NCBI GenBank assembly: GCA_019096195.1
Contig: JAGTXK010000187.1
Coordinates: 62,001 to 126,000, forward strand
From: Boletus sp. NGJ
Taxonomy: Eukaryota; Basidiomycota; Agaricomycetes; Boletales; Boletaceae
Length of the DNA stretch: 64,000 nucleotides
Direction: 5' to 3'
Shown: positions 1,381-62,460 of the stretch, in pieces
How positions within the stretch are numbered: position 1 is the first letter of the stretch
How the letters are laid out: each line of letters begins with the position of its first letter
The notes under the pieces: model-generated
The model's database searches: none
Told to the model about the DNA's origin: nothing
What the model saw: only the letters and a program-made list of their open reading frames with translations
Program-made: the position numbers and the translations under genes

Positions 1381-2363
1381 TGGCCAGTCTTCAGAAAGGT
1401 AGTCAAGGATGCACACCAATCACTCTGTTTTACACAGCAGTGCCAAGAGTTCACTAAAAGGCAACCAGGACAGGAGTATGACAGAGATAAAGACAAAATG
1501 CCTAAGACAAAGTGAAAGGTAACAGCAAGAAAGAAAAGACAGATCAAAGACCAGTCAGTCTCCTTGGCAGCCTCCAATCAAGTCTCTGCTCTGTAGTGCT
1601 ATCAGAGGTCTCAGGACAACCAGCAAACACACAGAGTTGAATCTGTGAAGCCAGGTAGTAGAGACTTGATCACACTTCTTCCTAACCAACTGGTTTTCAC
1701 ACTTGGCACACTATAGTGAAGCAGAGATCAAGTGCCTAATCCAAAGACTTACACTTTCACTCTTGAAAAGTCCTTATCAACTGTCAGATCTGTTATCAGA
1801 TGACAGCCAGAACATCAATCAGATGGTATTAAACTTACAAAGAACACTCAGAGACTTCAGATATGGGCAGGTGTAGCAAAGGTGTGGATGAATTGTGTCA
1901 ATTGTGTAGACACAGTGTAGAATGTGAGGAATTGCAGTAGTAGTCAGGTTGTCGCGCAGTTGAGCAACTCCAATGCAGTCGGGCATTCCACATATGGAAA
2001 GCGGCTGTGCTACCACCCTAGTACTGAATGGACAACAGATTCGCTGCAAGCGAGCCACATGGTTTTTGATGCACAAAAAAGGAAATACACGTGGGACAGC
2101 CGCCATAGACGAAACACCCAAAATATGCGAAAATAGCCGAAATACGCAAGAAAAGTGTCAGATAAGTGTTGTCACAAAGAGATTCACACGCGTCGTCCGC
2201 TAACTTTTAGATTTTTTCTACACAGGTTTGCATTCAGTCAGTCAATTCTTTTCAGAGGTCTATTCTGCAGAAGTCCTGCATCCTACTATTGCACTTGCAG
2301 CAACCATGATATGTGATTACAAACAAATGTTTATCATTTTTGACATGTCAATAGGCTAAGGTC
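1381..2363. other. AT-rich stretch, no gene seen
   Basis: No open frame here has coding character, splice pattern or recognisable motif. The stretch has the same AT-rich composition as the flanking repeats and is probably old repeat-derived DNA of unknown family. Confidence 0.5.
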
Positions 2364-2528
2364 ATGCTGAATGAGATCCTGATGGAAGGCAAGGACATTT
2401 TATTCAAATATGACATCTATGTGAACATCTACATTGATCTACTTGGCCTTATGTCTAAATGTGACACCTCTCCCATCTATCATGCCAAAACAAAAGCACT
2501 TCATGTGCAGTGGGTGAAAATCAGGTGA
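2364..2528 (+). pseudogene. Short coding-like fragment, family unknown
   Basis: A 54-codon open frame begins MLNEILMEGKD and has amphipathic, protein-like composition (KYDIYVNIYIDLLGL). It is open for a few codons upstream of the ATG and ends at TGA. Nothing in frame continues it on either side, and the surroundings are AT-rich non-coding DNA. It looks like one surviving exon or a fragment of a dead gene, possibly from a transposable element. I cannot place it in a family. Confidence 0.3.
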
Positions 2529-3105
2529 TAAGTGGTAGAGTATATTTTCAAATTTGTTTGACGATGTTTACATCAGGAACAGCAATGAGACATGTACAAT
2601 GACCAGGTTTGATGTGGATCTCAATTAGATATGGCTTGGCATGTGCCTCAAATTTGTAATCACAGCATGCAGTGCAATTACATCATTGTTTGTGTCTATA
2701 GACAGGCTGGATATCACTGTAACAGACTGTAAGCTTTTGTCCTGTAGTCTTTGGATAGAGCAGGAGCTGACTAGGGCAGACTGTCGTATTCTGTGATTGT
2801 ATTACTATTTGAATCACAACTATATCTTTGCCTTCCTTACCCAGGCTGGAATAGCCTGGGTGTAATATAGATAGAGCTGTGCAGCTAGGTACATTTCTGG
2901 GAGCAGCTGGATTGACTGGGCTACTGGCTAGTGCTGGCCAGTGCTAGATGGGAGCTATGTAGGCTGGTTTGCTGATGTGGTGTGGAAACCAGGCAAATGT
3001 ATGGACCATCACTGACAGCAATCCTACATGTGTTCTCATTGTCATCATTTAGCACATCTACACTTTTGATTTAGAATTAGGATTAGGATTAGGATCAGCT
3101 TAAAA

Positions 3106-3405
3106 TTACTACTATGATTATGACTACTATGAATGTACTATGAATGCTATGAAATGCTATGGTACTATGACACTATATATGATACTATGAACACTATGAA
3201 GATACTATGGATACTATGAATATACTTTCAATACTATGACACTATGAACACTATGAACACTATGAAATGCTATGGTACTATGATACTATGATACTATGAA
3301 CACTATGAATATACTATAGATACTATGAATACACTTTCAATACTATGACACTATGAACACTATGAATTATCTATGAAACTACTATGGCACTATGAGCACT
3401 ATGAT
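3106..3405. repeat. Minisatellite, ~9-bp unit ACTATGAAT/ACTATGAAC
   Basis: Degenerate tandem copies of a nine-base unit (ACTATGAAC, ACTATGAAT, ACTATGATA) fill about 300 bp, with two higher-order blocks that repeat each other (roughly 3170-3260 and 3235-3350). It lies immediately downstream of the decayed 3' end of the MFS gene. Confidence 0.9.
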
Positions 3406-3479
3406 GAAATCCTGTATTTACTAATGATCTTGGCACATCACTGGCTATATACATATATCTGAGTTGTGACAACATTACT

Positions 3480-5846
3480 TGCTTGCATGAACCTTGAATC
3501 TGGCATTCAAACCAAAAGTCAGTGAGAAAGGTAGGCCCATGGCATACATGTTATACAAGGATGCTTTGACAGTACAACTAGCCACCACACCGGAATTTCT
3601 CGAGCACCATGCAACCTGTCATGAATAAATCTGAGTTCCTGTAGACCTTTTGTTTGGCACTAATGCCTACTTGGATTGGATGGGTATAACTGTGACCACA
3701 ACATTCATTCAGCAAATGCATCACAAGAAAAGCTTAGGAAGACATACAGATAGGAAAGGAGTCCAGTGACCAATCTCTACCATTCAATCAGTCCACTTCC
3801 AGAGAGATGGCAAGAAATACAGACGAAAAAGAGCCACGGATTTGGGCTCATCGGTAAAGTATATAGGGCCACCAGGAATGGTAACACCCACAGATCCTCC
3901 GTCATCGCCACGATGGCACGTTCATTAACCAACTCTGACACAAGTGTGATGAAAAACATATTGATGATTCCCATCACTTGAGATGATATAGTCAGCAAAT
4001 TGGTATCGAATGTACTAAATCTAGAACATCGGTTCAGCAGTAGATCAATGTAATGACACAGCCTTTACTTGCCCTGCATCTCGGAGTAAAAGAGTGAGGT
4101 AGGTGGCCGGTGGGTTACTAGGTATTCCGAACATAAGGCCACTATGAAGACTGTCGGTCAAGAGCTGCAGGATTTCACTCAAACTCACAGAATATACACC
4201 GGCCGCAGGTCATAATCGCAGACAGCAGTCCAAAGCCTTTTCACGGTTAGTCCCTCTCAGTTGTGCATGTCACCCTAGTGATGTTTAGTATGTATCCTTC
4301 TACGAACGAGCTCTTCGTCATCTTGGTTGGGTCATCACGAAGAACCTTGTTGACAATGACAACCTCTTCGCGCTCGGTAAACCATCCCATTGGTCGGAAC
4401 CACGTTTTTGTCTGCGTGGGAGATGGTGGCATGTTGAAAAAAGAGGTAATGCCTATAGCAAGCATTATCAAGCCTCTGTTTGTACAATTAAGCAGCTTGG
4501 TAGTTGTGGATCAATTGCACCACTCACTCTATCAAGAATAACCACCTGTGAATTTATGCGAATAATAAGATCAGACATGTCGTAATTATAGGAGTTGCTT
4601 ACCGCCATCCAGCTTTTCCGGCAACACCGTTGAGATGGAGAATTCCGTAAGCCAGGAAGCTAGCAACGATAGCACAGAAATTCATGGACATCCAAAAGCC
4701 AGCCAAGCGGATAGGAAGCTCGTTCTTTGTGTAAAAGTCTAGAACACATCATTCAATGCAGAAGGAAGCCACGATCAGAAGGACAGACAAGACAAGTATA
4801 AAACGAGGTCAGGTATGAAGCTAGAAAGGGCGAAATTGACTGATTTCTTGGGAGCAGAATTGGTGATGTCATAAGAAACCTGTTGTGCACAACGTCAGGG
4901 TATCACAAGGACAGGAAAGGACAAGTCCTCACCCGAGCAATGCACGAGCGGCAAGGAAAGATGCTCTTCGCGTAAGCCAAAATTGACTAAGAGAGACGAT
5001 GCCTATAGCTAGTTGAGTACCGCTCCGTGGAATCAGTGGGTTACTCACTCCAGAGACACATCTGGATCGGTATCCAACGATCGGGTCCGACCTAATATCA
5101 TCAATGAATGAACTAGTAGTAAAGATACACGCTTCGAAACCAGTTGGGACGGCAATTCTGCACACAGGAATGAAAGGCGGAAAACGGTGTTCCCCATGTT
5201 GAAGTCTAATCCCATCATTGTTTCGTTAGATACCTTAAGTTGTTCCGCTTACCGTCTGTAGTCAAGGGCAAATCGGAAAGAAAGCTGGCTGAATTTGCCT
5301 GACCGATATTGTTGCGGTCCAAGTTGAGCGCAGAAAAGCCGGCAGCGGCCATGACCATAACCTTCCAGTCGATCTTGCGCAACAGTGCCTTAACGATGGT
5401 CAACACACGATAAACCCCGTTCCCAAGTTACTTGCCTTCTCCTCTTGGTAGGCCCACCTCGCTGAAGGATCGAAACGATGAATGTTCTCATAATCTTTCT
5501 TCGGCCAATAGAACGACGCAAGATAAGGATCGTCGAACACGGAGCGTCTTGTGGCAATGACGTCAGGATCACGGGGAGGACCTGTTCGCCTGCCAAAGAG
5601 TGCCTTTGCCCAGCTTGAAGTAGATTGTTCCTCCTCTTCGTCGACGAGGTGCGGATCACTTCGTCCTTCAATACTCTCCTCGGCTACATACAGGTGGCCA
5701 AGATAAGAACTCGATTTGGACACGCTTGGGAGAGCGGGAGTGGCTGCCTCGCTGGTATCGGGCAGGTTGGGGATTGACATTGCAAGGCTCAGATAACGAA
5801 CAGCAGGCAACCCCGAATTTATGGTGTTTGGATTGCACCCGCTCAT
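3480..5846 (-). CDS. DAL5/allantoate-permease-like MFS transporter (3' end decayed?)
   Basis: This is a major facilitator of the anion:cation symporter (DAL5) family, predicted to move small organic anions or vitamins across the plasma membrane. Exon 1 (5846-5437) is a hydrophilic N-terminus; a second possible start is at 5780. Later exons read ALLRKIDWKVM, LDRNNIGQANSASFLSDLPL, DFNMGNTVFRLSFLCAELPS, GPDRWIPIQMCLWS and WFTEREEVVIVNKVLRDDPTK, all typical of the family. Intron 1 (5435-5389) has a GC donor. Ten or so short exons can be followed to about 3777. Further on, RNSG and ASLYNM signatures are still readable near 3560-3610, but the frame is hard to follow and a minisatellite follows, so the C-terminal transmembrane part may be broken. 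Confidence 0.75.
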
Positions 5847-21725: not shown

Positions 21726-22898
21726 ATGTTCCCTAGCTGGAATTGGACATTAATTGGTGACTTTTCCCGCGTTTCGTCAAGTGTCATTGATAACGAACCA
21801 TAGTATCCGTAGTGGTCTCGGTGTCCTTCCATGGTGTGGCAATACTCTCAACCGTGTTTAGGCTCTGCTACCGATGGTATACAGCCCGCATGTGGTGGGA
21901 TGATGCTTGGGTTGTACCTGCCTTCTTGGCCGACATCGCTTTCCTCATCGTTTCCGTGCTTGAACAGCCAATTCCGTTCGGTAACGTCGTCCTCGAACCT
22001 GATCCTATCAATCGCTGATGTGTGTGATTACTAGCCGATTTCCCTCGTTTCTTCGTCGTAGGAAACTGGATCATCTCGTTCGCATATCCGACGCTCATGT
22101 GGTGCGTTGACTTATCGCGTCGATGGCGCGCAAGAATTGACAAGGAAACGCTGTCATGACGAACTCCAGGTCCATGAGGATCAGCATTTTGGCTTCCATA
22201 GTGCGCGTTTCGCATCCCGAGGGCATACTGAGACACATTGCTCTCGCCATCGGTGTCTCTTTCGGGATCATGGCAATCGCGATGTTCGCCCTGCGAATTC
22301 AGCTCTGCGTTGTGGATGCATGCCCCATGACGACGACCGTGCTTATAGCCCAGACCACCAGTAAGCTCTCGACATTCGCATTGATCTCCCACGTGTTGGC
22401 GTTCAACCATTGATCGGGTAAGCAGCGGATTGTGTTGCGGACGTGCTCTTGAGTGCGCTTCCGCTCTGGTTCTTACGCAGGGTGAAACTGAGTCGAAAAC
22501 GGAGGGTTCTGATATCTTCTGCATTGTCAGCAATCATTGTCATCAATGTTGTGACGATTATCGAGGCAGTGGCACTGTTCTCGGAGATCACGTCGGGTTC
22601 AATTATCTTTGAGCACGTCAAAGTGGCGTGCTCTCTGATCGTGTGCAACCTGCTCGTAATCGTCACCTTTGTCTACCGCATCTTGCACAAAGGTGAGATG
22701 GGCATTGAGGAATCTATACACGAGACGAACAGGATCGAGTTCACGACGGTCGACCTCGCCCAGGGATGGTACAGTCAAGAGACGAGCATGGGGCTGTCGT
22801 TGCCCGTATCGTCGGGAAAGACAAAATCATCTACCTGGTCTTTCCCCGGTAGTGGAACCAAGATATGTAACATAGAGAGGGAGGAAGAGCACCAATGA
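21726..22898 (+). CDS. Seven-pass membrane protein B1, paralog of A1/A2
   Basis: Exons 21726-21756, 21813-21980, 22035-22101, 22170-22360 and 22426-22898 join in frame to 309 residues. Intron positions 1-4 match A1/A2. The fifth A-type intron, at HIK/AAL, is absent here and the coding sequence runs straight through EHVKVACSLIVC. Features are MFPSWNWTLI, helix 1 VSVSFHGVAILSTVFRLCYR, loop RMWWDDAWVV, four further helices, and ADVLLSALPLWFLRR. The cytosolic tail is longer than in A (about 70 residues, Ser/Thr/Lys-rich) and offers possible phosphorylation sites. Confidence 0.6.
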
Positions 22899-24023: not shown

Positions 24024-25208
24024 ATGTTCCCTAACTGGAACTGTACATTGATTGGTGACCTTTCCCGCCGTTTCACTGGATTTTATCGATGATGAACCAC
24101 AGTGTCTATCCACAGCTGTCTCGGTGTCCTTCCATGGTGTGGCAATACTCTCAACCGTGTTTAGGCTCTGCTACCGATGGTATACATCCCGCATGTGGTG
24201 GGATGATGCTTGGGTTGTACCCGCCTTCTTGGCCGACATCGCTTTCCTCATCGTTTCCGTGCTTGAACAGCCAATTCCGTTCGGTAACGTCGTCCTCGAA
24301 CCTGATCCTATCAATCGCTGATGTGTGTGATTACTAGACGATTTCCCTCGTTTCTTCGTCGTAGGAAACTGGATCATCTCGTTCGCATATCCGACGCTCA
24401 TGTGGTGCGTTGACTTATCGCGTCGATGGCGCGCAAGAATTGACAAGGAAACGCTGTCATGACGAACTCCAGGTCCATGAGGATCAGCATTTTGGCTTCC
24501 ATAGTGCGCGTTTCGCATCCCGAGGGCATACTGAGACACATTGCTCTCGCCATCGGTGTCTCTTTCGGGATCATGGCAATCGCGATGTTCGCCCTGCGAA
24601 TTCAGCTCTGCGTTGTGGATGCATGTGACATGACGACGACCGTGCTTATAGCCCAGACCACCAGTAAGCACTCGACATTCGCTGATCTCCCACAATGGCG
24701 TTCAACCATTGATCGGTAAACAGCGGATTGTGTTGCGGACGTGCTCTTGAGTGCGCTTCCGCTCTGGTTCTTACGCAGGGTGAAACTGAGTCGAAAACGG
24801 AGGATTCTGATATCTTCTGCATTGTCGGCAAGCATGGTCATTAACGTTGTGACGATCATTGAGGCGGTGGCACTGTTCCAGTCGTATCTCACGTCGGGTT
24901 CAATTATCTTTGAGCACGTCAAAGTGGCGTGCTCTCTGATCGTGTGCAACCTGCTCGTGATAGTCACCTTTGTCTACCGCATCTTGCACAAGGGCGACAT
25001 GGGCATCGAGGACTCTATATCCGGGACGAACAAGATCGAGTTCACGACGGTCGACCTCGCCCTGGGAGGGTTCAGTCAAGAGACCAGTAGAGGAAAGTCA
25101 TCTTACGGGCTAGGAACGATGAAATCGTCTACTTGGTCTTTTGAAGGTGATAGCGGACCAGAGGCGTCTGGGTCTGTGACTTGTAGGGGTGTCTCGGAGG
25201 GTGAGTGA
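24024..25208 (+). CDS. Seven-pass membrane protein B2, paralog of B1
   Basis: Exons 24024-24054, 24116-24283, 24338-24404, 24473-24663 and 24724-25208 give 313 residues. Exon and intron sequence from about 24116 to 24620 is nearly identical to B1. The loop RMWWDDAWVV and ILRHIALAIGVSFGIMAIAM are conserved. Differences concentrate in the first exon (MFPNWNCTLI), in a short insertion near AVALFQSYLTSGS, and in the C-terminal tail, which is Ser/Gly/Thr-rich and clearly diverged. This suggests that the tail evolves faster than the membrane core. Intron 1 ends at CCACAG. Confidence 0.6.
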
Positions 25209-33627: not shown

Positions 33628-36226
33628 CTAGACCGATAGGTCCAGCTTGAAGAGGCAATAGAGCAGCGTCGCGCTCTTACACACAGGACATTCCGATTTC
33701 GCAACGACCGCCTGCGTGATACACCTAACCAACCCCTCGGTTCATAAAAGCTCCCCATGCGACAAAAGGCTGCCAAAACGCACCTTTTACAAAAGAGATG
33801 ACCACAAATAGTCGCAGTCATGTCCTCACACGGGTCCAAAAGACAAATTCGGCAGTGTAAACGGTGTGCCACATTAGTACTCGTACCCGCGCCTGCCACG
33901 GTCGGTGCACGTTCCTCGCGCGTGCGCAAAGGGTCTGCCATTTCTAGAGATTCAAGGGACGACGATGACGAGAGTCGTAGGGGTGTGTGGCCCGACGACG
34001 GGGAACCTGCGCTGGTGGCGACCAGAACAGCGTGGTTGTCACGGATATAGTCGGGTATCCCATCGGCCGAAACGAACACAATCGACTGGCTGGATGAGGT
34101 CGAAGAACTCTGTGTGCTGTCGGCGTGTCAGTTAGTTGATCCATATACAACGATGACGAAAAGGGGAGGGGGCAAGACCTTGTATCGGAGAACGGCTCCG
34201 CGGAAACGGAAGATATCGGAGACGGAGCTCGGGTATCGTTGTTCGTGGCAGCGTTGGTTGCTTCAGAGGCGGCTGGTTGTAACCGACTTGCATCGCTGCC
34301 ATGTTCAGAGGGTGTTGGTGAGGGAGATGCATATTGGCACAGGTCAACAACCGGGGGTTCCTCTCCGTTGATCATGATGCATGGATTTACAGCTGCCTCA
34401 TTAGGCGACAAGAAAAGGGACGAATTCGTCTGTGACGGGCTATTGTGTAGCTCGTTGCCAGGTCCCGGTGGCGTGCGATCGAGCTCTTCCAGAGGTTGTC
34501 GCGCGGCTTCCTCCTGGTCCGCTCCGGGGGGTTGCATGTCTACTAAAGGAGACTCTTCATCTGGACTCGCCTAATTTTACAAAAACCAAGTTAGCACGGT
34601 GTCAAGCTAATTATGATCTGGCACACTCACATTTACGTTGCTGCCTACCACGTCGTCTTCCATCTCCGCACTTGAGGCGTGCACGTGCCTGACGTGCTGA
34701 GTGGGGATGTCAGAAACGTGCATACCACTATGGCACGGTGATCACACAAACCTCGTCCATATCGGCCGAATTTCTCTTGCCAAGGCCACAGAATGCACAA
34801 GATACGTGTGCGGGAGATTCCGCGTAATGCAATTCGAGATTGTCCTTCTCGACAACAATGCCATCGCAATCCCAACAGACCACGACTGGGTGGTCCGATC
34901 CCACATGCTGTCGGATAGATTCAATGTCAGTGAATGACAGTGCTCATCAATGAAATAATCGTGAAACTGAAAAATCCTTACCAGACAAAGAGCAAGATCA
35001 TCGGCAAAGGACTTGCCACACTTGCCACATGTCGGATGGTTGAGCAAATGATCCTGCAGTATCTCATCCGAGCAGCATCGAGTCAGACAGAGCTGACATG
35101 AGAATTCCTGGAGACCTTCCAGGTGTTTCTGGAGTGACGACTCGTCATCGAATTGAGTGTAGCATACCGCGCAATGAGGTCGGAACATGGACATGCGGGA
35201 AGCACAAACGTGATCCCGAAAGGCCTCTTCAGTTTCAAAGACCGTGAGGCATGGTGTACACTGGAAAATAACACTGCGGAAATCCGCAGAGTCATCCTGG
35301 TGCTTATCATCAACAATCATATCATCTGGTACAGGCTTGTCTGTGTTCGATGACAAAGAAAACGTTTGTTGACATATCGAGCACGTGCCGGGCTCGAGCG
35401 AATGTGTGCAGGGGCAAGGCTGTTCAGCAGTAGTCCCCTCGCCGGGTGCATCTGTGGAAGAAATTCCGCTTATCGAATGATACAATTCTTCTTTGTCCAA
35501 TATCGAATCTGACGAATGAGAAGGAGAAGCGGGTGACTCTGACGCTTCATCCGTGCATTGGGTAACGTCAGAATCCGACGAATTTTCGTCGACACTTCCC
35601 ATCGACTTTGACGCATTTGATGATAGTGAACCAAACCGCGAAGGTGGGTGGTTGGAGGGCGAGCATGTGGAGCGTGTGACACGATTGACAGGGTTGTAAC
35701 TGCAGGACTTCTCGTGGACATTCTTGTAGGCCTGACTAAGGAACTTCATTACACAATAGTCGCACTCGATGTAGTGCTTGGTATTTTCGTGTTGCTGTCG
35801 AGCACCCTCTGAAGAAAATTCTCCATCACAGTAGTGACATTCGAATGTAGGATGCTTGGCATCCTCATGCTGCTCCCGAGCTTGCTCTGAGGAAAATTCG
35901 CGGTCGCAATGGCGACACTCGAAAGTACGACGATGCTTGGCTTCTTCGTGTTGCTGTCGACCGTTTTCAGAGTTAAATTCGCAGTCGCAGTAGCGACACT
36001 CGAACATAGAATGCTTCGCCTCCTCGTGCGAGTCGCGGCCTTGCGCTGTGATGAATCTACTGTCACAGTAGCGACATTCCACCTTGCGGTGCTTGCCAGA
36101 TCGCATGTGCTGGTAGAATGGATCGTCGAGTGGGCCATTGGGCAATCTCAGGAAAAGAATACTCACCATTCGGACGCTGTTGTCGTCAACGAACAAACGG
36201 CCTGGACACGAGGGACAGTAAGGCAT
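33628..36226 (-). CDS. C2H2 zinc-finger array + C-terminal RING protein (copy Z1)
   Basis: The first exon is short (MPYCPSCPGRLFVDDNSV). After an intron there are at least four tandem degenerate C2H2 fingers with the spacing ECRYCD...F...HEEAKH, a Ser/Asp/Glu-rich spacer, further CxxC/H fingers (CQLCLTRCCSDEI, CGKCGKSF, CAFCGLGKR), a long disordered region, and a C-terminal C3HC4-like RING. The RING (HCRICLLDPCEDM, CGHLFCKR, CITQAVVAKSECPVCK) is split by an intron and is followed by the conserved tail LLYCLFKLDLSV. A RING implies E3 ubiquitin-ligase activity; the fingers could select a nucleic acid or protein target. No such fusion family is known to me by name. It is convergent with FTR1. 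Confidence 0.75.
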
Positions 36227-37305
36227 CGTTGTCAATCCCAGCTGAGCACCAAGTTGGTGAAGTATAGAGTACAGCACAAAGGTTAGCTTTCGCACGGTTC
36301 GAACTACATGCTGTTTCGTCCTGTGTCCGGGACATCAAACTGTGTTCTGTACCCTGGCCACGCATCTTCGCAGCCAGAGGCTGGCAGCTTCGTCTTCTCT
36401 TTTCAGCATGCATTTCCCTCCCGCCACACGCAGATAATACACTTAGCCATTCCGCCATCCAGTGTCGGTGTCTTTCCCAGACGAAAAAGTCCGTTCACAT
36501 GGTACTGAGGATGCTTGGACAGGAAGAACGTTGATAGCAACGCGGTAGAGAAGCATGAAAACATTCTAATATGCCTCGGAACTGTGAGATAGAATCACAA
36601 GCAAAAAAAAAAAAGAGGAAACTGAGCCAGAAGACGAGAATCCGCTAATGCATCTTTCCCACTGGTGACCGGTGACCCCCCGTTGTCCTGTACTTTTCAA
36701 GCTCTAGATCAACGGTGAGCATATTCCTGTTATAGTTGGCGCTGCGCGGCAGCAGCCTGTTCGTCGGAAATGCATTTTTTTGAATGTAGTTGGGTCCTGT
36801 GAGTCGGCAGTGGGAACTACTAGTAGGGATGGAAGAAAATTGGCTCCTGCGCAATCTCTGGACTCGGAGTTGACACAAATGTGTGGGGACTTGGACAGCT
36901 TGTTCCGGCAGGTGCACGAGAGGTAGGCGAGTTTGTCTTGAGACCAGTTTGCATGACGGTGTAGCAAATACACGGACAGCGGCCATGGCCCATACGGAGG
37001 TAAGTTATATATATTTATTTGAGCTCATGTTTTCGTTCTTTTCATTTACTCGCCCGTTATGTCTTACAGCCAGGAGTTACTCTGCTGGACAGAGTCCGGC
37101 GCTAACACAGATAGATGCACTGGCAGAGCATAAGAACCCGTGCACTGTTCTAACTAATATTCAGTCTCTCACTGACAGTTGGGGAGAAACGACTGCTGTG
37201 CACTTGGACATAGATATGCATTGATCACTACACGACATTGTTATCAGTCACACCATGTGCATGAAAGGTGTTTAATACGAAGGTAAGGTCAAGGCAGTGT
37301 CGGTC

Positions 37306-38493
37306 TCAACTTGCGGCAGCACTACGCTCCCTGTGCGTAGGTAGAGGCTCTACCACTACCAGAGATTCAAGGGACGACGATGACGAAAGTCGTAGGGAAG
37401 TGTGGTCCGACGACGGGGAACCCGTGCTAGTGGCGACCAATATGGCACGGTTTTCACGGATATACTCGGGTATCTCATCAACCGAAACAAACACAATTGA
37501 GTGGCTGGGTGACGTCGGAGAACTCTGTGTACTGTCAGCGTGTCAGCCAACTGGTCTATAGAACGATGGCAAAAGGGGGGGGGTGACCTTGTATCAGAGA
37601 ACGGCTCCGCGGGAGGTCGGGTTGAGGACTCTTCATCAATACTTCCCGTCAACTTTGGCGCGTTTGATGACAGTGAACCAAACCGCAATGGTGGGCGGTT
37701 GGATGGCGCCAGCGTGGAGCACATGACACGATTGGCAGGGTTGCAATTGCAGGACTTCTCGTGTGCAATCTTGGAGGCCGGAGTAAAGAATTCTATCGTA
37801 CAATAGCTGCATTCGATGTGCCGCTGGAACTCTTCAACTTGGGTGAAGCTCTTACCGCAGAGCTTGCACTCAAAGTGGTGCTTGGCATTTTCGTGTTGCT
37901 GTCGAGCACTCTCTGAAGAAAATTGGCGATCACAGTAGCGACATTCGAACGTAAGATGGGTGGCATTTTCATGCTGCTCCCGCGCATCTTCTGAGAAAAA
38001 CTTGCGAACACAGGAGCGGCACCCGAACGTCGGATGGTTGGCATCTTCGCGTTGCTGTCGAGCTTCCTCAGAGCTGAATTCGTAGTCACAGCAGTGACAC
38101 TCAAACATAGAATGCTTCGCCTCCTCGTGCGCGCCGCGGCCTTGCACTGCAGTGAATTCATGGTCGCAGTAGCGACACTCGAACTTGGGTTGGTGTTCGG
38201 CTGTTTGATGAGCCAAGCGATCCTCGTTCGTGGTGAATCCGTGATCACAGTATTCGCACTCGAAGGAGCAACGCTTGTCTCTCGCATGTTGCTCAAGGGA
38301 AATTTGGGAGTGCAGCACCTTGCCACATTTTGTACAAGTGTACACGGTGTGCTTGCCAGATCGCATGTGCTGGTAGAAGGGGTCGTCGAGTGGGCATCAC
38401 GGAAGATCTCGGAGAGAACATGAACATGCTCACCATTTGGACGCCGTCATCGTCATTGAAGGAACGGCTGGGACGTAGGGAAGAGGAGGACAT
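37306..38493 (-). CDS. C2H2 zinc-finger paralog lacking the RING (copy Z2)
   Basis: The first exon (MSSSSLRPSRSFNDDDGVQM) splices to HMRSGKH exactly as in Z1. Eight or so fingers follow (TCTKCGKVLH, FECEYCDHGF, FECRYCDHEF, ...HHFECKLCGKSF, IECSYCTIEF), then the Z1-like NPANR...SRFGSLSSNA-type segment. A second intron near 37600 leads to STQSSPTSPSHSIVF, which aligns with the Z1 STQSSSTSSSQSIVF. The frame ends at 37306 where Z1 would go on to its RING. All of the middle disordered part and finger set 2 of Z1 are also missing. It is a shortened tandem duplicate of Z1, 1.1 kb upstream. It could act as a RING-less competitor or be decaying. Confidence 0.65.
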
Positions 38494-40365
38494 TGTTGTC
38501 AATGAAGCTGAGCACCAAGCGGTAGAGTATAGCACAAGGGTCTCTTTCGTACGATTCGAGCTACAAGCTATTGTTATTCAGTGTCACATCGTCGAATCCC
38601 GCCTCAGCTGAGCCGTGGGAATTCTGCTGGCTGACCCTCGCCATCACACCTGGCACTCTGGTTTGCCTGCTCTGATTGTTATACAATAATTCACCTAAAC
38701 AGCCTTGAAAAGGCGGCAGTCGGGGTAGCTGTTTGTTGTAAGCCCCCCCAAAGAGAGCTTTCGTAGGCTTGAAACCGCACGCCGTATACCACTACTTTGG
38801 CTGTCCATGCGCCTACTGTACACAACCCAGCTGATCCTCGGAGAGGGTGTCTGACAGACGTAGCAAACAGGTCCGGCCACCTAAATTGTAATCAACAGAA
38901 ACATCACCCTGTTGAAGACTTCGTAGAACACGGCGGATTCTGACGCTCTCTTTTGGGAACCAGGGGCTTGGTCTTGAAACAGAGGACTAGTTGGATGGCT
39001 GGCTGTGGACCGGTAAGACCGCACAACGCAAACGTCGCCAGACTCACCATACAATGCTACAGAAGACTTCTAGACCATGCGCAAAAGATGACTAGATCGC
39101 TGAATGCTTTGATCATGATGATCCTCTTGACAGAGACACCTCCGGTCGTCCCGTAATAAGCTATCTCTGAGGTATTTCCTACAACATGAGCGTCGCCCGA
39201 CTCACCATACGACGTCTTTCAGATAGATCCTTACACGAGGCGCATAACTTGGCATTCTAGTCAGTCAGAGTAGAGGACATGGTCGAAATGAACTTGCCTC
39301 GCAGGCGTTTCAGAAGAACTGTAACCCTGCCATTAATTTATACGGATCGATCATTGGACTCCTTCAACTAATACTAGTACTTGAACGCTGAACTCTCCCG
39401 ACAGAAGCGAATGGATGATACGGTATGTAGTATGTATTGATCTCGGCATGATCCTTTTCCACCGTGACAGGCAGAGGACGGGCTTTCGACAAGAGGCTCT
39501 AGTTGATAAGCCTTGGGATACCAAGATATGGGCGTCGGCTACCACGTAGGAATTCTAGGACGCCTGTGTGCTCTCGAGGTGCGTGGGTCGAGTTCAACAC
39601 ACCATACCCGAGAACCCCACCGACGCGACTGCGCGGAAGTATCGTACAACCAATGACTCGCACAAACTTTGATGGCCCAACGTTGTGAACGACATCGCCT
39701 GTATAACGTGGAGGGCACCACAGGCGATGACCCGCTGGAAGCGTACCGCCGATCACTCTCAATCTTGCCACATTTTACTCACGAGATATACACCACACGG
39801 CTGCCTACGAAGAGAGCGCCATACCGCAGGTACTTGGCATCTGCCAAGGAAGTATATGCCCCATAGGACGGTAAACGAGACCTTTTTCTTCATCTTAATA
39901 AACAAACAACCTGCCGCAATTAGGAACTTCATTCTTCAGAATTACATAAAGATCAAGGGGTTTCGGGCCAGGGTCATCGGGACCTACGCCTATAGCCAAG
40001 GAGATCTGACGATGAGCATGCTAAACCAGTAGCCGTGTGTTGAACCTTGTGATGCCCCCCCCGCTATCTTTGACGTTGGCCCAAGGTGTACAAAAGCTGG
40101 GGGAGTTTTCTGCGATGTCAAAGACTGAAGCTGTGGGGTGTCTGCCTCGTCATCGTAAGAAAACGTGGACAGTGTATCGTCTTCGGTCGTCGCGAGGTGC
40201 AGAGGACTGGATAACCAGATTATTTAGCACCGTCAAGTGGAGAGCATGCACACAATCATACATTGTCATCAAACCGCTTATATACATTAAATAATACCAC
40301 AGGACATCGTGACGCTTCAAACGACTGTAAAAGTTGGGACTTGGAAACGAGCGACCGTTCCATGC
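38494..40365. other. Intergenic region between Z2 and Z3
   Basis: No gene is supported over 1.9 kb. Two imperfect copies of a roughly 60-bp segment (about 39030-39095 and 39190-39250, sharing CGACTCACCATAC) lie here. A 51-codon open run at about 39885-40035 reads protein-like (FILQNYIKIKGFRARVIGTY) but has no start or partner exon. Confidence 0.45.
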
Positions 40366-43300
40366 TCAAGCCGACGTATCAATGCGGAACAAACAATACA
40401 GCAACGTCGGCGCCTCACAAACAGGACAACGTGCGTCTTTCATAATCGCCGTAGAAATGCACCTGCATCCAGTTTCAGAAACGCGGGTAAGAGTCATTCG
40501 ACACCACACGTACTGGTAACAAAACAAGTGGCCACATGTAGTCGTCGTCGGTTCTTCGCAGTGATCCATATAGCAGGACCTGCAGTGGTATGACGGCGAA
40601 GGCGTCCCATTCGGCCGTCTGTTAAATGCGTGGGGGGGTACATGATTTGCCTGGCTGTTGGTCCATTTTCTTGTCGGACGCCTGAGAGCTGAGAAACGTG
40701 GTAATTTACTGACGCCTGCATTCCAGATCATGAGGGGTCCTCTATACGTGAACTGCAAAACGAATACATACCGTTCATCTTCAAATTGGGTCGAGGGTGT
40801 ACAACGGATGGTCCGAGGGCTGAATCGCTCGACGTGGAGTGGCTGTCCCATCCAGAATCCAACATGATATTCTCTTCAAACCGCACCTCACGGCGGCGTC
40901 CTCGTTCACCTATAGCAAGCCCCGTGGAAGACAAAATGGGCGATGAGATACCGGGACTCTGGGGTATTGGACGGGTCGGTAGTTCTTGCGTCTGATGGGT
41001 GAGGGATAAATACGCCCGCGCTTCGCGAAGATAATCTGGCGTCATGCTCGCGGAGATGCTGATGCCGGCCGACTCGGGGGAGATGGAGCTGAGACACCCC
41101 GAGTTACTAGAATATAAGGTCAATAAAATATTCCGTGCAACGCGAAGGAATCTGACTACGACCTTGCGCTACCAGTTAAGTGCGTCGAGCTTGGAACTAG
41201 CAAGCTCAACTGCGGGACAGTACGATCGGACGTTGCAGTCTGATCTACAGAAAACGTGCCGTTTGTCCCCTTGGATGAGGATATAAAACGGGGATGAGGC
41301 GAGGATCTTCTAGAATCAGTATCACTTGTCGTCGTCCAATTCGATGTAGGTGACGTGGATGCGACACCTGGATCGGGTAATCGAACGACGGGGGAAATCA
41401 ATGGAGGAGAACGCGTAAAGGAACTACTAGAGTTGCTATCCACGTCATCTTGTTCTGCCACAGTCACCACGGTGCCGCTAGCCCCTTGAGACAGTGAGAA
41501 CAATGATGGCGGTTCAGGTCGCGGGCTGAATGGGCTTTGTAAGTCGGACGATTGGATTGTCGGCACGCTGGATATGAGAGGTGTACCAACCGCCGGAAGC
41601 GTCGACAAGGGTGAGTGATCAAACTCGGGAGATGCCTTGAGATCTTCGCCAATGTCGAGAGAGATCGATCGGGGGATCGCGTCCCACGGCGGTCCATCGA
41701 TAGGAGAGTGTTGCTCAACAGTAAGGGTAGAACTGCGCGAATGCGACTCTGACGAGCCACCGGGTTCAGCAGCTACCCTTTGGGATGTAGGGCTAGAGTA
41801 ACCGCTCAAACTGGGCGGTAAGGGTATGAATGACGCATATGGGAGATTCGCACTACCCTCGAAGCCCCAAACAGGGTCGAAGGCTCGAGCACCCGACGAG
41901 GGACTCGAAAGCTCGTCATAGGATATTTTGTTCTCGCGATCGGGCTTAATGGCAGAAATTCCAGATTGTCCCTGATCTCCCAAGCGTGGACGATGGACGA
42001 TGAAGAGATGCTAGAGTAGAAGCAGGGTTATCACCAGGTTATTCATGTCGGGCGCCAGACCTTACATATTGATACGCATCCGCGTCAGCAAACCTGATAT
42101 TGCAACCATGGCATTTCGGATGATTGAAAAAATGCTTGATATGATTCTGTAAGATCTCTGGGGTGTCAAAGTGCCACTGGCACAGATAACAATGACACTC
42201 TGGATGTGCAGAAGCGCCATGCTGCACGATTCGAGGTCAAGGGAGAACCCACGACGAATCTTATCGCTTACATCCGTGTAATCGAACTCATCTCTGAACC
42301 CAATGCCGCATTTCTCGCACTTGGGATGTTTCCACGAACTCAAGTAGTGAACAGGGAGTTCCTCCCGATCGAAAAATTCACCCTCACATACATGACAGGC
42401 GATGCGTGGGTGGGCTTCATCAAGGTGCTGCGAACCCTGGTTAGTTCTTTCACTCTCACCTCGATCAAACGTGACACTTACGGCGGTATACGTGTCATTG
42501 TTCTCGAATCCAAGCTGACATTTCTCGCAGTAAGGGTGAACATCGCTCGAGGAGTTCTTGAAGTGTTCAAGGAGCTGATCTTCCTCGGTGTACGCCAAGC
42601 CGCATGAGTGGCATGCGTGGGGGGAACGATGCTGCTCGAGGTGCTCCTCCAGTTCTCTCATGTCCATATAGATGCCATCGTGGCAAATGGGGCACGAATG
42701 AACTGTAACGACATGGACATCGAGTTCCGTCTGTGACGAACAAATCTCGTAACAGACGTCGCACCGGGCATCTGCACTAGGCTCCGCGGAAACACGAAGA
42801 AAACCCAGATTTGGGCTATGCTGCGGAGAAGCGGCGAGATGTAATAAATTCATATGCTAATGGGTCTAAGTGAATATCGGGAACCCTCTTAACTCCGAGC
42901 TGCGGGGCTTACCGTGAGTAATGCGTTCTCATCTTCAAAGCCGAGATGGCAAGCGACACAGACTGGATGGTAATTATCTGCGGCAGCGAAGTGAAGCTCG
43001 CGTTCCTCCTCTGTCTGGTACCGCGTCCCGCACCTCTTGCATAGAACAGGATGGGAATGCCCCATCATGTGATCAGACAACGTCCGGGCGTCTCTCAGAA
43101 TGCCATCTTGGCATACGGCACATGAGTGGACGGTGTCGACGTGTTCTTCAAGCGCGGCTGTTGAGGGGCATATAAAGTGGCAAATTATGCACTCCGCCCC
43201 CGTTGGATGCTTTGCAGCCATGTGGGCTTGCAAGCCCACCTGACCTTTAAACGGTTTCTTGCAAAGTTCGCAGACAACAAGCCCTCTCCCGGGCGAGTTG

Positions 43301-43987
43301 GATGAGACATGAGGGCTCGTCGGACGAATGACAGCTAGACTGGGGCTTCTCTGGGAAGGGGGGATAATGGCATCGCAAGCGAACTCCGCCTGACGACCGT
43401 TCGATTGAGTCTTTTGGTGCGCTTGCTTGAAGTGGTTATTCCACTCGACGAGGGAGGAGGATAGGTAACTGCACTTTGAGCATGAGAGCTTCCCATGGGA
43501 GGACTGATGCGTTTCCAGTTTAGCAAGAGAGTCGAAGCTTGTTTGGCACTCGTTGCAGCGATGTACAGCGTGCTGCTCGACCAGGTCCGAATTGCTGGTG
43601 GTCGCATTGCCGTTTACGGTGGTTGAAGATGCAGAAACGCCACAAGTCTCTGGTTGATGAGCAAGTCGCTCTGAGCTCGAGACTTTTGGGGAGGACGCCG
43701 AACGAGGCGGGTAGTGTTGTTTAGCCTTCTGGTGGGCAAGCAAACCGCCTGGAGTGGTGAACTTCTTGTTGCAGATGCAACATTGGGTGGCTGGGGCGAG
43801 TTGAGGAGGACGTCCTACGGGGCTAAGAGGTGTGTTCGAATGTACCTCCGAAATATGCTGGAGAGCGGGGGAAAAGATTAGACTATAGTTGTCGCAAACG
43901 AGAGAGCAACCAACATACATTCGTCAATTCGCCGATTTCGACGAACGAAGGCTGGTTTCCAGTCGGGCAAAGGAGGCAAAGGGGCAT
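40366..43987 (-). CDS. Large C2H2 zinc-finger + C-terminal RING protein (copy Z3)
   Basis: Exon 1 (MPLCLLCPTGNQPSFVEIGE) splices to HISEVHSNTPL. A long array of C2H2 and C2HC-type fingers follows: QCCICNKKFTTPGGLLAHQK, HRCNECQTSF, VVCELCKKPFKGQVGLQAHM, ECIICHFICPS, CAVCQDGI, CKRCGTRYQ, CDVCYEICSS, CEKCGIGF, CYLCQWHF and more. A Ser/Pro-rich disordered middle (41983-41156 and later exons) leads to a C-terminal RING (YHCRSCYMDHCEEPTTTTCG, FCYQ, CISTAIMKDARCPVC) with the tail TLLYCLFRIDTSA. The domain order, intron inside the RING and tail match Z1, so Z3 is a diverged member of the same family. A nuclear or cytosolic ubiquitin ligase is a reasonable guess, not shown. Confidence 0.75.
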
Positions 43988-47962: not shown

Positions 47963-50900
47963 CTAGCCGAGCCCCCGACCATTCGGAGCACTCTGATAAA
48001 ACGTCGGTGAATCATAGATGAACGCATCGAGCTCCGAATCAGAACCGCTATCATCCCCAGAATCGTCCGAATAATCATTCGGCTTGCCGATATGAAAAAC
48101 GTCCGTAAATGGCGTCTGAGGTGCATCGTTGGAGTTGTCCGTCGACCGGGCGATGATGGATGCCACGCGTTCTTCCAGCTGCTGGCTCGGTACCAGAACA
48201 CGGGGCCGGGGTTTCGTGTTCTGGAAAAATTCACTCAGCTCGTGGAGGTCCTGGACTAAGACGCCGAGGTCCTCATCCAGTGTGTCCACAAACGACATGA
48301 TCTGCGAACGTGACTCTAGGTGGATATATGATGGACGGAGAGCACCGATGCACGTTTGCGCAACTGCCATCATATTGTTCCTGCAAATAGATCGCCGGGA
48401 TTTGACCTGAGAGATACACCACCCTGAATCTTCAGGAACGCCAAAGATTTCCCCCTCGTCTACAGAGGAAGCATTGACTGAGGTATGCATGCTCATCCGG
48501 AGAACGTTGCGGGAAATTTGTCCCCCGGAGACCTTTGTCGGCTCTTCAAGAACGTCAAGTGCTTGAGCAGCCAGGTCACCCTCAACAAGTCGCAGTAACG
48601 GCATGAGGTGTTCAGTTGCGAGTGAATGCTGTGCGTTTCGCGGGTCACGTTGCTGGAAGAACGCCTTCAATACTTGCATCGTATGAATGCGCAGCCAGTT
48701 CTCCTTATTGAGAACCAGGCCCAGAAGGAGCGTGGCAATATCCGACCAGCGTGTAGCCGAACAATATTCGCGAAGCCCAGCGATAGACTGTCTCAGGAAG
48801 TCATCCTTGGTACGAAAACGATTCTTAACGAAGGAGGTCATGATGCGAGAGATGGTGTCCCGGCCATCTTGTGAAGCAAGGTTGGCAATGGAAGTGCAAA
48901 AATCGACAAGAGCAGCATCACGATTGTCGCCAGACATGGAATGTAAACACCACGGAAGGGAGAGGGCGAAAAGGTCACAAACACGACGTTCGGAGGGTTC
49001 AATGAGCCGCGAGTCTGAGATTCTGGTCAGCACCTGAAGTGCCGCGAAGGTGTCAGCCATAGTAGTTGCCGAGCGTAAGCCACTCAGGAGGCATGTTTGT
49101 AAACTGTACATGCCGTTCCAAGACTCTGGACATTGAGCGAGTACTGATTCGACGAACTCCGCGTTGCCTAAATCCAGCTTGCCAAGTAACACGGTCAAGA
49201 GTTTGACTGCTGCGGCGAATTCCGATTCAACAACTGTCATGAGACATGATGCTGTAGTCCAGAAGAGACGCGGAAGGAGGACGGGGTTGAGATCATCCAA
49301 AGCCACAGAGACCACTAGCGTAGACATGATCGCCTCAGCAAAGTGATGGAGCTCGGTTTCATCGTCACTTATGGCGGAGTACAAGCAACTAAGTATATGC
49401 CCGAGTATATCTTGAGAGAGAGGGACCTTCAGCAACCGGAAGACCTGAAGAGACCGTTTGGCGATGCCGGGAATGTGGCAATGTTCAACGTAGGCTATGG
49501 ATAAGGCAGCTAGGTTCTGCGCCAGGTCCGGGACGAATTGCCCAATGACAGACACCACTTGATCAACGATGTACTTCATGCGAGGCAAAACCACCTCTTC
49601 AGCATCACTTTCCGACCAGAAAAGAGAATCCGCCTGCTCCTCCATGGTCGCGACGGTTGATAGCAGAGACGCCCGGGCAGGTTGTCCCGCCTTGTCAGTG
49701 GCTGATGGGTACCGGGGTACGCAAGCTCTCATCAGCTGAAACAGCATACGACGCGCAGCTGATCGCATCATCGAGACCCTGTGATCCAGATGAAAGAGGA
49801 CGGCCGAGAGGATGACGGGTAACTGTTCGTGGTTTGTCCACATGCGTTCGAGCGAGACAGAGCCAATATACACCATTGCATACTGAGCGGATCCCAAGAG
49901 TTGGCGGGGTTGATCGTCCGCGAACAGCACGTCGAGATCAGACCACAGCTCGAGTTCCTCTGGAGCCGGTTGCTCTAGTCGGTGCTCAAAGGTAGGTGGC
50001 ATCCTTTCTGGCCCACAAACGCTGCACAGCTCCTGGAAGATCTGTATACCCGCCGCTGAACGAGACAAGCACGCGATAACCTCGGAGGCACACTTGACAA
50101 AGGCATTCGTAGCGACCTTGAGGGACTCGTTGACCAGGAAGGATGCAATAGCTCGCCCAGCTAATGGGTCTGGTACCTCTACAAGCCGAGCCCAAATCGC
50201 AGCGATTTGCTCGGGCTGTGCATCGCTAAATCGCTTGGTAAGGGCGAGCAAATGATACACAACCAGACTGCCCTTCGATGTCAAGGCCAGCTTCGACGTG
50301 TCAGGTGCACTGATCTCGAGGTTTGGCATCCAATGCTCCAAGCTTTGTAGCATGAGATGACAGACTCTTTCGTTACCGTGGCGGTGGACACGTAATAGTA
50401 GTGCTGTAACCTCTGATAGGAAATCGAAGGCTTGCTCTGGATGCTCCCCTGCAAGACATTCTCCTACTAGTCGATGGGCTTGAAGGTAAACGCTCGGGGC
50501 ATCATTGACCACCATCGTTTCGAACTCTGCCATGGAAATCACGCCTGCGGACTGCTCATGAATGGCCTCAAGAATGTTGAATGCGTGCTCTCGTATCGTA
50601 GCGTTTCCATGACACAGATTGGCTAATCCAAGGCACGCAACCTGCGCAAATGCAAATGGATGGCCTGATACGTTGCAGACCACATCCACGATGATCTCGA
50701 AGAATGCGGCGCTGCTCAGTGTGGTGGTCGTGGCATCACAGAACCCTCGGCGAAGGACGTCTACTAGTAGATCTGCGCCAGGATGAGGTAAGACGAGGAG
50801 AGACCGTAATGCTTTTCTGAACAAGAGATAACAGGTCAAATGTGTCAAATACAACTTTCCCGACGAATAAGCGAGCTTACTTAGCACAGGTCACCAGTGG

Positions 50901-53900
50901 AGTTTGGGCGTCCTCAAACACAGCGTGAAATCGATCTAGAATTTGAGCGACCTCGAGCGGTTTGGGAGGATCTGGGATGAGGCGTTCGGTTGGAGAGTTT
51001 AATTCGACAGTGTCGGCTGGCCGATAAGCTCTTTGCTACAGCGTCTAGTTAGTAATACGTTGCACTTCCAAATGAATAACAACTGACACAAAGGGACGAC
51101 AGGGCACCGACAGACGCATGTGACAATAATTTGGTCTCGTGTTGAAATCGCTCGCCAGCGTCTGACTCCGCATCAGGATCTTTTATAGCTGCGGCAGCAG
51201 CCCTTTGCATCAAGATGAACCTAGTTTTGGCGGATTCGTTCTGTGGACCATATTGGCACCATTCTTCGCACATACGGTATAGAGAGAGATGGACGTTGGG
51301 AGGGGTGCCATCCGCCTCAAAAAGATCCTCCAAAGCACTGAAAATACGCTCAACCAACCGGCAAAAATAGCGCCGCAGCCGCTGTAAAGAGTAATTATCA
51401 CGATTCTCGGGTGCAAGTAGGAACACCTGTGTGTTCCTAACGAACTTGAGCGCGTGGGATAAAGCATCTTGTTTGCTCGGCGACTTTAGAGAGTGAAGGT
51501 GCGGAGCGGTGAGGTAGTAGATCCGACCGACAGCTGAATGGAGCCGAGCTTGTCGACGAGGGCGGATCCCAGTCGCGGGTGAACCCGGCTTGGTGCGACC
51601 TTCGTCATAAAATTGACGAGAGGTAAAGAGGTTGAGATCTTCTAGGAGTTGAGGATACCCTTCGAGAGGAAATGTACTAATAGCCAACACAGCAGCCTCT
51701 CGGAATGGTGTATAGTCCGCGTCCAAGAATGGCGTCAGGTGTTTAAACAGGTAGCGCGTCGTCGACATTCTCTCGCGCTCAAAGGTTGATTCCGAAGGCG
51801 CACGGGAGTGCTCGCGACCCGCTTGTGTCATCGCGGGTCGATTGTCCGACACCGCTGCGGTGGAGCAAAGCACCCTAGTCCAGGTATACCACTGGTCGAT
51901 AAGAGTCATATTCTCCTTTACTAGCTTGTACCCTTCTTGTTCTGTCGAGCGGGAGGATTGCATGCGGCCACTGGAAGATATTCCACTAAGTCGGAGCATC
52001 GTTGGGTGATATCGTGATGTCGCAGCTTCGACGACAGCCCTACAATTTTGAATAAGCTGACCGCAGCTCGACATCGAAGCCCGCATGAACGCTGGATAGA
52101 CGAAACGCCATATTTTTCGATCTTTCTCTACATTGCTATCCGCGATTTGGAGAAGAACGTCTGGCTTCGCAGATCTCCTCCACTGCTGAAGACGATCTAG
52201 CTCGCCGCGATCGAGCAGTTCGTCGAAACCTTGAAGAAACGGGCATTCCTTGTCGTTCTCGAACAGTGATGAAAACAAGAATGAGAAAGGAGTGGGATCA
52301 TTGGCCGAGGTGCCCCCAGGCGTGAGATCCTTGCAAAGGGGAATAAGCGAGCGTACCAGCTTGATACCAGCAGAACGGATGGGCATCGATTCACACGAAA
52401 GGAGGAAAAGTGCACCGAGTGCAATCTCCTCGGCCTGCTGAAGAACAGCCTGCAGATCGCTCCCAGCCAGGTCCTGCTTTGGCTTCTGGGAGAGCCCGGT
52501 AATCCATGTATCCACCACGCCAGTCCAGAGGTTCAACAGTCTTGCGCTTTCGAGGAGAATCCGATAGCCAGCTCCCTCTCGTTCGACATTCTTGGGATCG
52601 AACAAGAAAGCAGTGAAACATTTAAGAACCGTTGGCGCATACAGCACGTCTTTCATGAACCTTCTCAAAGCCGCCCCTGCAACCTCACCGATCCGCGGCT
52701 CGACATGCACGACGCCATGCAAAAGCATTTCAACCGCGTCGAGAAGAGAGATCGATGGAGTGTGTAAGCATCGTGGCCATGATTGATAGCACGTCTGCAG
52801 GATGCTGATGTGTGAAACTAAGTGGTTCGGATACGCGAAAGCTCCTTCCGGATGCCGACGGATAACCAAGTTGTGAGATTCCTCGAAAGACGATGCGCTG
52901 CTAGACGCAGAAGAACGTGCCAGTGACCATTGTTCGTCAAAGACAGACATATGACCAATTGCCTTGAAGCATGCTTGTGCGATGGTAGAGGTTGCAGCAC
53001 CGAAACGGTCGACGAAGTCCTGAATCCCGGGTTTCGAGAGCACCGCAGCCGGAAGAACATCTGAAGAGGAAGGGTAATCATCCCATGAAGGTATCGCCGA
53101 AAAGTCCGCGCTGGACGGCCATGTTGGCGTCGGTTCTTCGCGTTCGAAACCATGTAGTGTCAAGAGGGTCGCCTGCACCAGGATCCCAACACGCTCAGGA
53201 GCCAACGTGCCGTTCGCACTAGCAGACTCTTGCAGGAGCTCCATGCAGAAGTCGCGGCCGTACTCGAAATAACGAGAGATGATAAAATGGACAACACAAA
53301 TGAATGGTTCGAGGTGTTCTTCGGGTGGAAAGACAGATGGCCGTCCGGTAGGGAAGAAATACTTGAGGAGCCCATCTAGTCTTGAGGTGCTGTTCGATGC
53401 AGGTTCTTGGCAACGGTAAAGATATGTCCAGATCAAGCGGACCGTCCCATTCAGAATGGGAATGCGGTGCGGTTTGTCCTATGAAATGGCATGTGAGCAC
53501 GACAAGGTTGAGGAATTGAAGTAAGTCGAGACGATACCTTTAATTTACTGATCCCATACTCGAAACACGCCACCCAGTTTTTTAGGAAAAACTGATGCGG
53601 GGCCACGCATAGCGCTGTAACTGCTAGCGGATACGCGACATGCCAATATCGAGGCTTTGACATCATCTCCTTTGCACGAGGGTAAATCTTCTCTATCGCT
53701 TTCTCCCACTGTGGGTGGTTGACTTCTGCTTGAGCAGCCTGCAGAAAAGATTACTCAGATGTCACCAACCAGGGAATCATGTTCCCACCTTGCCAATAGG
53801 ATGCAACAATCGTGTGAGCGTCTCTGCAAAAGCCACTTTGAAACGTAGACCATGTGCGTTCTCAAACGACTTTGCTAAGGATTCCATGAATTCAGCACCT

Positions 53901-55939: not shown

Positions 55940-58900
55940 CTATAACTTTTGTATACCAATCGGAGGTTTCCTCACGACGTCCGTGCACCTCAAGCAGAGA
56001 TCGTCTTCCTCGAGCCGCGTGAACGTCCAGCAGCGAGGACACTTGTGCAGTGAGGCAGGTCGGATATGGAGACCTATTTCAGCGTCCGAGCCTATCGGAC
56101 TGTTCAACCCGTGATATACATGATATGACAATGACTTGGCATACCTGGTATATTTATATTTATTGAACCACTATACCCCCACGCCGGAGAATTGGATGTC
56201 GCATCAACCTTTTCTGTTAACGTCACATCGGACACGATAAAGAGGGTCTTTAAAAAGTTTGCTGATTGTGGTCCTTTGAGAATTCGCTTCCAAGATGGCT
56301 ATCTACTTACCTTCACGCCTTAGCAATTCCACAAGCTCCAGTCCTCTTGCATCGGATGGCAAGGTGATCACCACTTGCGCCTCCAAAGCACTCTTCAGAT
56401 TCCTAAGAGTAGTGTCAGCCCGAGCCATACATCGCATGTCGTACGCATACTTATCCCCCCGAGCCTTTTCCAAGAGCGATAGCACAGCGCTACGTACACT
56501 CAACAAGCTGTCCATATCTTTTTCTGCCTGAGGGTCCTCCCACTCAGTACTCTAGTTGTGGAATCAAGCACATGTCAACTATAATCACTATCGCGTGTCA
56601 TGATCGGACATACAAGTGGCTCCCACTTATTCGTGAAAAAAGAGCGTCCAGACGCTTCAGTCGCACGGTGTGCATGTATCTCTTCCGCGAGGTAGGGAAG
56701 CACTGGGGCAAGTACTGACGTCATGCCCCGCAGTATCTGATGGTGGACGTGAATCACCTTTCTGGATCCCAACTATGGTTAATGCTCACCCGCTTGAGTG
56801 TATCAACGACCACTCTACGCTCGATGCTATGGACATCGTTGGCGTACAAGACGTCCTTTGTAATATCAAAGTATAGAGACGAAAGCGTGATGTTGGCGAA
56901 ATTCGTTAAAGCAACCATGACTTGAATGCAGCGTCAACGCTGTGTGGTAGATGTGCTTACATGACATACCTCGAGGGAAGTTATACGTTCCATAGCCCTC
57001 GAGGGCTGTCCTTTCGAGCTTGTACAATTCATTCATGACGTACCGTTCTGCCTAGTTCAAGGTAAGCTGCTAACGCGTCATTGAATAAGGAAATACAAAC
57101 CAAACCCAGATCCTTCTTCTCCACACCGGAATGCGTTTCGCTGTCTTGCAAGGCCGTCGAGCCGATGTTCCCGAGCAGGAATCTGGCAGAATTTCGTATT
57201 TTCCTCATAGATTCCGCAGTCTGTGCAAGCACGGTGGGGCCAATAGACATATCACGCCAATACTCGACGGTCGCTGCCCAGAGTCGAAGGACGTCTGCCC
57301 CATAAGCTGGTTCCTTCTTCTTATCCTAAGCGCTGTCAGCCCCACGGGAAGATGGTCCACTGTAATGCAGGACCTACAGCACCACCGTCAATGACTGTTA
57401 GCGGACTAACGACGTTGCCGAGTGACTTGCTCATTTTCTTCCCAGCCTCGTCAAGCACCATACCATGTGTGATCAACGTACCGTATGGGCTCACTGGCAC
57501 TGTCTTATCGTCGGCAGTACCGAGTGCAGTCAGCAGCTGACTCTGGAACCATCCACGATGTTGATCTGATCCCTCAACACAGACATCCGCACGATGCTTT
57601 CTTCCTTCTATCGTGGCCAGCATGGACCAACTCGTTCCACTGTCGAACCATACGTCCATCGTATCTGTGCCCTTTTTCCATCCAGCCTTACCGTATTCGG
57701 CAACGGGTTCTGGAGCAAGGAAGTCATTAACGGGTCCGTCCCACCAATAGCTAACACCATTCTTGTCCAGCACATGCAGGATGTGAGAAAGGGAAGAAGG
57801 GGTGAGGACGGTGGTGCCACTGGGGATGTGGTATAGTGATGGTATCGGGACACCCCAGACACGCTGACGAGAAATGCACCATTCCGAGCGGGACTGGACA
57901 AATGTTGTGAGACGATTACGGGCTGGTGAACAGTGTCAACAGCCGTTCGTGGAGGTCTACAGGAACCACGTACAAGCCGGGGGGAAGAATGACACTTCCT
58001 CGAGCGCAGTCAATGCATTTTCTTTAATATTATCCAAGTTCGCGAACCACTGCGAAGTCGCTCTGTAAGGACCACGCAGATAGTCAGCACTCGGGCTCTG
58101 TACGGTTAGCTTCATGGGAACCTCACGTTACGATGACGGGCTCGTTCGTTTTCCAATCATAGGGGTACCTATGTTTGATCCTCTCAACAGCCAATAGCGC
58201 TCCGCAATCTTCTAGTATCTTCACGATGGCTTTGGATCCTCCTTTCATTACCTCCAAGCCTACCAGTGCTTCGCCTCCCAGCTCCGGGGGGACGACATCC
58301 GTCACACGTTGCGAGTATTTACCCTCACCATCCACATGACACAACATTCCCGAGTCAAGAAGGCCCTGCGAACGGAAAGCAAGGTAATCTTCGGCACCAT
58401 GGGCTGGTGCACAATGCACCAATCCAGTTCCGGAATCAGAAGTAACGTGTGTCGCCGGAATGACACTTAGATTTGGAGAATTGGACGAAGCTTCCCCACA
58501 CGTAAGAGTGGCAAAGATGCCTCGATAACCGAGACCGACAAGTCCAGACCCTGGCAGCTCCGCTATCACTTCAATTTCTTCAGGTGGGCCAAGGACGCGC
58601 TCGAGTGCCAAAAGTCGATCCTTTGCAACCACAAGAAGCCCAGACTGTCGTGGACTGTGCACAATGGTATAGATGAGGTCCGGGTGTACTGCAATACCCT
58701 GGCAGTTCAAGAAGCTGAGGCTACAACAAAGCATATCGTATGGACAATACCACGACGTACCATATTAGCACTGAGGGTCCAAGGTGTAGTTGTCCAAACC
58801 AGCAGACGGATTGTTTCTTTCCCTATTGCATGGATTATCTTGCTCAATTCAATACCTTCAAGGGTATCGGAATGCGCAGAATCAAGTGTAAATGCTACAT

Positions 58901-60678: not shown

Positions 60679-60981
60679 CATGTTCCGCGGTGTCTCAGGC
60701 TCCCCGCGAGGCCACCCACAGCCATCTCTTCCCGCGTGCAGAATCCAGAGGGAAACATTCAGCACACAGCCACGAAGAGGCGTCAAAGTCAACCCAATCG
60801 GGTCCCTTTGTCCTGGACATCCCCGATTACGATCAGCCTTTGTTCTTGGCCGCGAAGCGCCCATAGCAAATACATATACGCGTAGAAGCATCTCTACAGC
60901 CGCACCACGAACGCCCAACGTTCCCATCTCTCCCTCATCATTTCTAGACCTCCTTGGCAACATCGAACAACCTAGGAAGCC

Positions 60982-62460
60982 ATGAACGTACTCTTGGGAT
61001 CAAACAATATGACATTGGTTTCCGATTATGGAGCCGAGGGGTACCACAATGAGCTGTGGCGGTCGTTTAGGAGGACTGCCGTCGAGCCTGGCCAAGCAAC
61101 CTCCCCAGACTTTGTTTCCTTCGCAGACGAATGTCTCCTCTGCGCCAGCGTTATGGTGGGCCTTAGTCCGCCTGCTCGCACTGAAGCCGAAAGGGAAGGT
61201 GATGGGCAATTCTGGGATACCGGCCCTCCAGAAGAGCACACACGGAGATCTCCTCCTCCTCCACCCCCGAGTCCCCACCTGTCGTCCTGTCAGCCCAATC
61301 CCCCAAGTCAAAGAGTTGGGCTCATCTACCTCTACTCCGGTCCTGCCAACCTCCCAGCGGGCGAAGCCAACATCGGCGTCATCGTAAAGGAAGACATGCA
61401 ACGCAGTGGCTATGCTCGCGAAGCTGTACAACTCGTGCTCCGCTGGGCATTCGAAGAACTCAAGTTCCATCGCGTGCAAGCGGCGATTCTTGACACGCCG
61501 TTCAAGGATAGAGCCCTGCGATTGTTCATCGGATCGGGATTCGCGCATGAAGGGACGAAGCGCAGAGCGGTCTACCTGCCCGAGGAAGAGGGCATGGCAG
61601 GCGTATGGAAAGACGTGACATACCTGGCGATGTTGGACACGGAGTGGATGCTGAGATCGACGTGGAAGAAGGATAATCAGCCCGTTACCACGGTTTGGGA
61701 TGAGATGTTTGCGAGGCATTCGAGAGAGCGGGAAGAATTATTGCGGTGGGAGGAGAATCATGGGAGGATAAAGAGGTCATCAAGCACGGAAACGTTGAGG
61801 GAGAACACGAGGAATGCGGCACAGGACATGGCCTACCTCACAGACGACGCGTCTTCGATCGGCGAGCCATCCCTCTGCGACTCGTTGCCCCCATCGCCAA
61901 GGCTCAACGTCATCGTGACCCGGGAGGAAGACGTGCATATGGCAGATGTTCTGGGTACCGACGAGTTTGGCCAAAGGTGGGAGGAAGTCATCGAGACGAC
62001 CCTCGCGGCGAGGCGACAAAGGCAAGGCATGGGAGGCTCACTCCTGGAACCATCGCCGCGTGGTCATATGCTAGCCTTGCCATCTATCCCCTCGACCAGG
62101 ATATCCGACGGGAATCCGCAGTCGCCGCTGACAATTCGGACCCCCTCTACCCCCGGATCTACGCCGCCATCCTCTCCTTCCGCGTCGTCCTCCATCTACG
62201 GCTCCTGGCCAGACTCTGAGGACGAAGACAATTGGTTACCTAGAGGTACCCTTCCTCCCGGAAACGTTCCTGCCCCTATGCCACACACCTCGTATCCTCC
62301 CACTGGACCGGCAAGTCTGAGAACTAGGACTCGAAGCCGCAGCTCGTCATCTTCCAGTATCGACTCCTGGAGCGATGCTCAGAGCAGCGTTAGCGCCGGT
62401 TCTAGCAACTGGGACGTGATTTCCAACACGTCTGCTCGTAGTCACCGTGGGCGTGTCTAA
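60982..62460 (+). CDS. GNAT-family acetyltransferase with long Ser-rich tail
   Basis: An uninterrupted frame gives 492 residues. The GNAT core is in the middle: VGLIYLYSG, GEANIGVIVKEDMQRSGYAR (acetyl-CoA binding loop, RSGYA), VLRWAFEELKFHRVQAAILD, and RALRLFIGSGFAHEGTKRRA. A Pro-rich insert (RRSPPPPPPSPH) separates the first strands from the core. After about residue 260 the protein is disordered and Ser/Pro/Arg-rich (TRTRSRSSSSSSIDSWSD). The acceptor substrate is unknown. The true N-terminus is probably further upstream: 60680-60980 has coding-like sequence (GPFVLDIPDYDQPLFLAAKR, then NTYTRRSISTAAPRTP, then LDLLGNIEQPRKP) that changes frame twice without introns. Confidence 0.75.
   Translation: MNVLLGSNNMTLVSDYGAEGYHNELWRSFRRTAVEPGQATSPDFVSFADECLLCASVMVGLSPPARTEAEREGDGQFWDTGPPEEHTRRSPPPPPPSPHLSSCQPNPPSQRVGLIYLYSGPANLPAGEANIGVIVKEDMQRSGYAREAVQLVLRWAFEELKFHRVQAAILDTPFKDRALRLFIGSGFAHEGTKRRAVYLPEEEGMAGVWKDVTYLAMLDTEWMLRSTWKKDNQPVTTVWDEMFARHSREREELLRWEENHGRIKRSSSTETLRENTRNAAQDMAYLTDDASSIGEPSLCDSLPPSPRLNVIVTREEDVHMADVLGTDEFGQRWEEVIETTLAARRQRQGMGGSLLEPSPRGHMLALPSIPSTRISDGNPQSPLTIRTPSTPGSTPPSSPSASSSIYGSWPDSEDEDNWLPRGTLPPGNVPAPMPHTSYPPTGPASLRTRTRSRSSSSSSIDSWSDAQSSVSAGSSNWDVISNTSARSHRGRV

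Follow-up and report, generated by a model that had tools for sequence, protein, structure and literature searches.

In a 64,000-nucleotide window of the Boletus sp. NGJ genome (contig JAGTXK010000187.1), two neighbouring genes encode proteins in which small zinc fingers stand in rows and are followed by a RING at the extreme C-terminal end. The joining of finger rows to a C-terminal RING makes it probable, as read from the sequence, that both products are RING ubiquitin ligases, attaching ubiquitin to other proteins. Their domain order is real and unusual, and it falls inside a familiar class: RING ligases whose recruiting parts are zinc fingers. A preliminary description of this DNA had proposed a three-member C2H2-array/RING family; two genes have the fingers and the C-terminal RING, and the third is a shortened copy.

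The RING and its C-terminal tail

All eight zinc ligands of the RING are present in C3HC4 order, and the coding sequence of the domain is spliced and therefore non-contiguous in genomic DNA. The common tail described previously is borne out, as the motif LLYCLF, with its Phe and Tyr residues, follows the RING in both genes. The neighbouring genes are predicted to be split into one competent and one weak RING, a division that would permit a simple biochemical test. BARD1 is an example of a known non-activating RING partner (accessible text of PMC13061254). It is quite improbable that the products are transcription regulators that carry fingers and use the RING mainly for dimerisation or interaction, with little activity as ligases.

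Finger arrays and nucleic acid binding

Adjacent fingers are separated by 1-5 residues, their contact residues are mostly small or acidic, and 5/6 of the array stretches are acidic. Classic DNA-reading C2H2 arrays instead have TGEKP-type linkers of seven residues together with basic or varied contact residues, a combination that these arrays lack. The fingers do match PF12171 (zf-C2H2_jaz), the JAZ-type, double-stranded RNA (dsRNA)-binding class, but the charge and linkers of the arrays argue against RNA binding of the JAZ type. It is unlikely that the arrays recognise nucleic acid, whether dsRNA, ribosomal RNA or DNA, and bring the RING close to proteins in the vicinity, the mode of action of ZNF598/Hel2 on translating ribosomes. 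No good sign of action on foreign DNA or RNA was found. Of the earlier interpretation, the RING ligases of unusual order remain probable; a role in defence is without support in the evidence gathered.

Loci, related matches and other features of the window

The C2H2/RING segments all lie on the minus strand within 33628..43987 (Table 1; coordinates are positions in the window). The same genome also carries a RING-less C2H2 gene, at about positions 828-1751 of the stretch L036 (G000:C14:43590-46652, contig C14). This gene likewise begins MPYC and has an intron immediately ahead of a finger's first His; neither a RING nor the LLYCLF tail was seen in L036. On contig C22 of the same genome (G000), in the regions of about 153-200 kb and 287-333 kb, there are three pairs of finger or RING matches that score equally on opposite strands. 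This pattern suggests that a large region was duplicated in inverted orientation, or else an artefact of the assembly.

Table 1. C2H2/RING segments in the window
Segment	Strand
36167..36226	(-)
34982..36109	(-)
34752..34907	(-)
34631..34696	(-)
34179..34570	(-)
33784..34116	(-)
33628..33724	(-)
38434..38493	(-)
37588..38369	(-)
37306..37531	(-)
43919..43987	(-)
42913..43857	(-)
42482..42856	(-)
42272..42427	(-)
42066..42221	(-)
41163..42010	(-)
40772..41106	(-)
40514..40715	(-)
40366..40462	(-)

Two plus-strand open frames (22422-22895 and 24720-25205), nearly identical over their first 60 residues and without a Pfam match at E-values up to 0.001, represent the window's second local duplication. 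Elsewhere, the window holds a large cell-morphogenesis gene with MOR2-PAG1 C-terminal and N-terminal matches in two frames (47966-53478, minus), a PF00133 match to class I tRNA synthetases (57339-57935, minus) and PF13302 and PF00583 matches to GNAT acetyltransferases (60976-62457, plus). Positions 1-4000 have lower G+C (0.40-0.42) and contain tandem repeats.

Comparison with known RING ligases

The main text of a C2H2 gene survey of 30 basidiomycetes lacks the word 'ubiquitin', and its sole 'ring' is a figure ring (PMC12295980); a Flammulina C2H2 survey has neither word (PMC11433517). The C2H2-array/RING architecture was not found in the accessible portions of a Cryptococcus review (PMC7072944) or a fruiting-body study (PMC8893723), and a Coprinopsis study lists C2H2 proteins and C3HC4 proteins under two different classes of candidate transcription factors (PMC4624876). 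The keyword searches, which paired C2H2 and RING and took in Agaricomycetes, basidiomycetes and mushrooms, covered few subscription journals, which makes this absence weak.

TRIM and TRAF ligases carry the RING at the N-terminus. The TRIM order of RING, B-box and coiled coil is not seen here, as the RING is C-terminal and no B-box was among the Pfam matches at E-values up to 1; nor was a TRAF domain among the Pfam matches of the finger/RING proteins. ZNF598/Hel2, a ubiquitin ligase of ribosome quality control, likewise combines a RING with several C2H2 fingers in one protein, but its RING is N-terminal, ahead of the fingers. Human proteins with both domains are rare, ZNF598 and three others being named in the accessible text of PMC5504347. 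In one comparative study, ubiquitination genes, including those for RING proteins, are commoner in orthogroups that are restricted to complex multicellular fungi (accessible text of PMC8893723). If this fungus belongs among them, the reversed-order finger-array ligase is therefore a concrete candidate for selecting substrates.

The dimeric RINGs of cIAP1, BIRC7, RNF4 and MDM2-MDMX have a short hydrophobic tail with Phe/Tyr after a C-terminal RING (accessible text of PMC6349121). The Boletus proteins share this arrangement by sequence, and their dimerisation is putative. BIR, SUMO-interacting and p53-binding parts were absent from the Pfam matches of the finger/RING proteins; compared with cIAP1, BIRC7, RNF4 and MDM2-MDMX, the substrate part here is the finger array.
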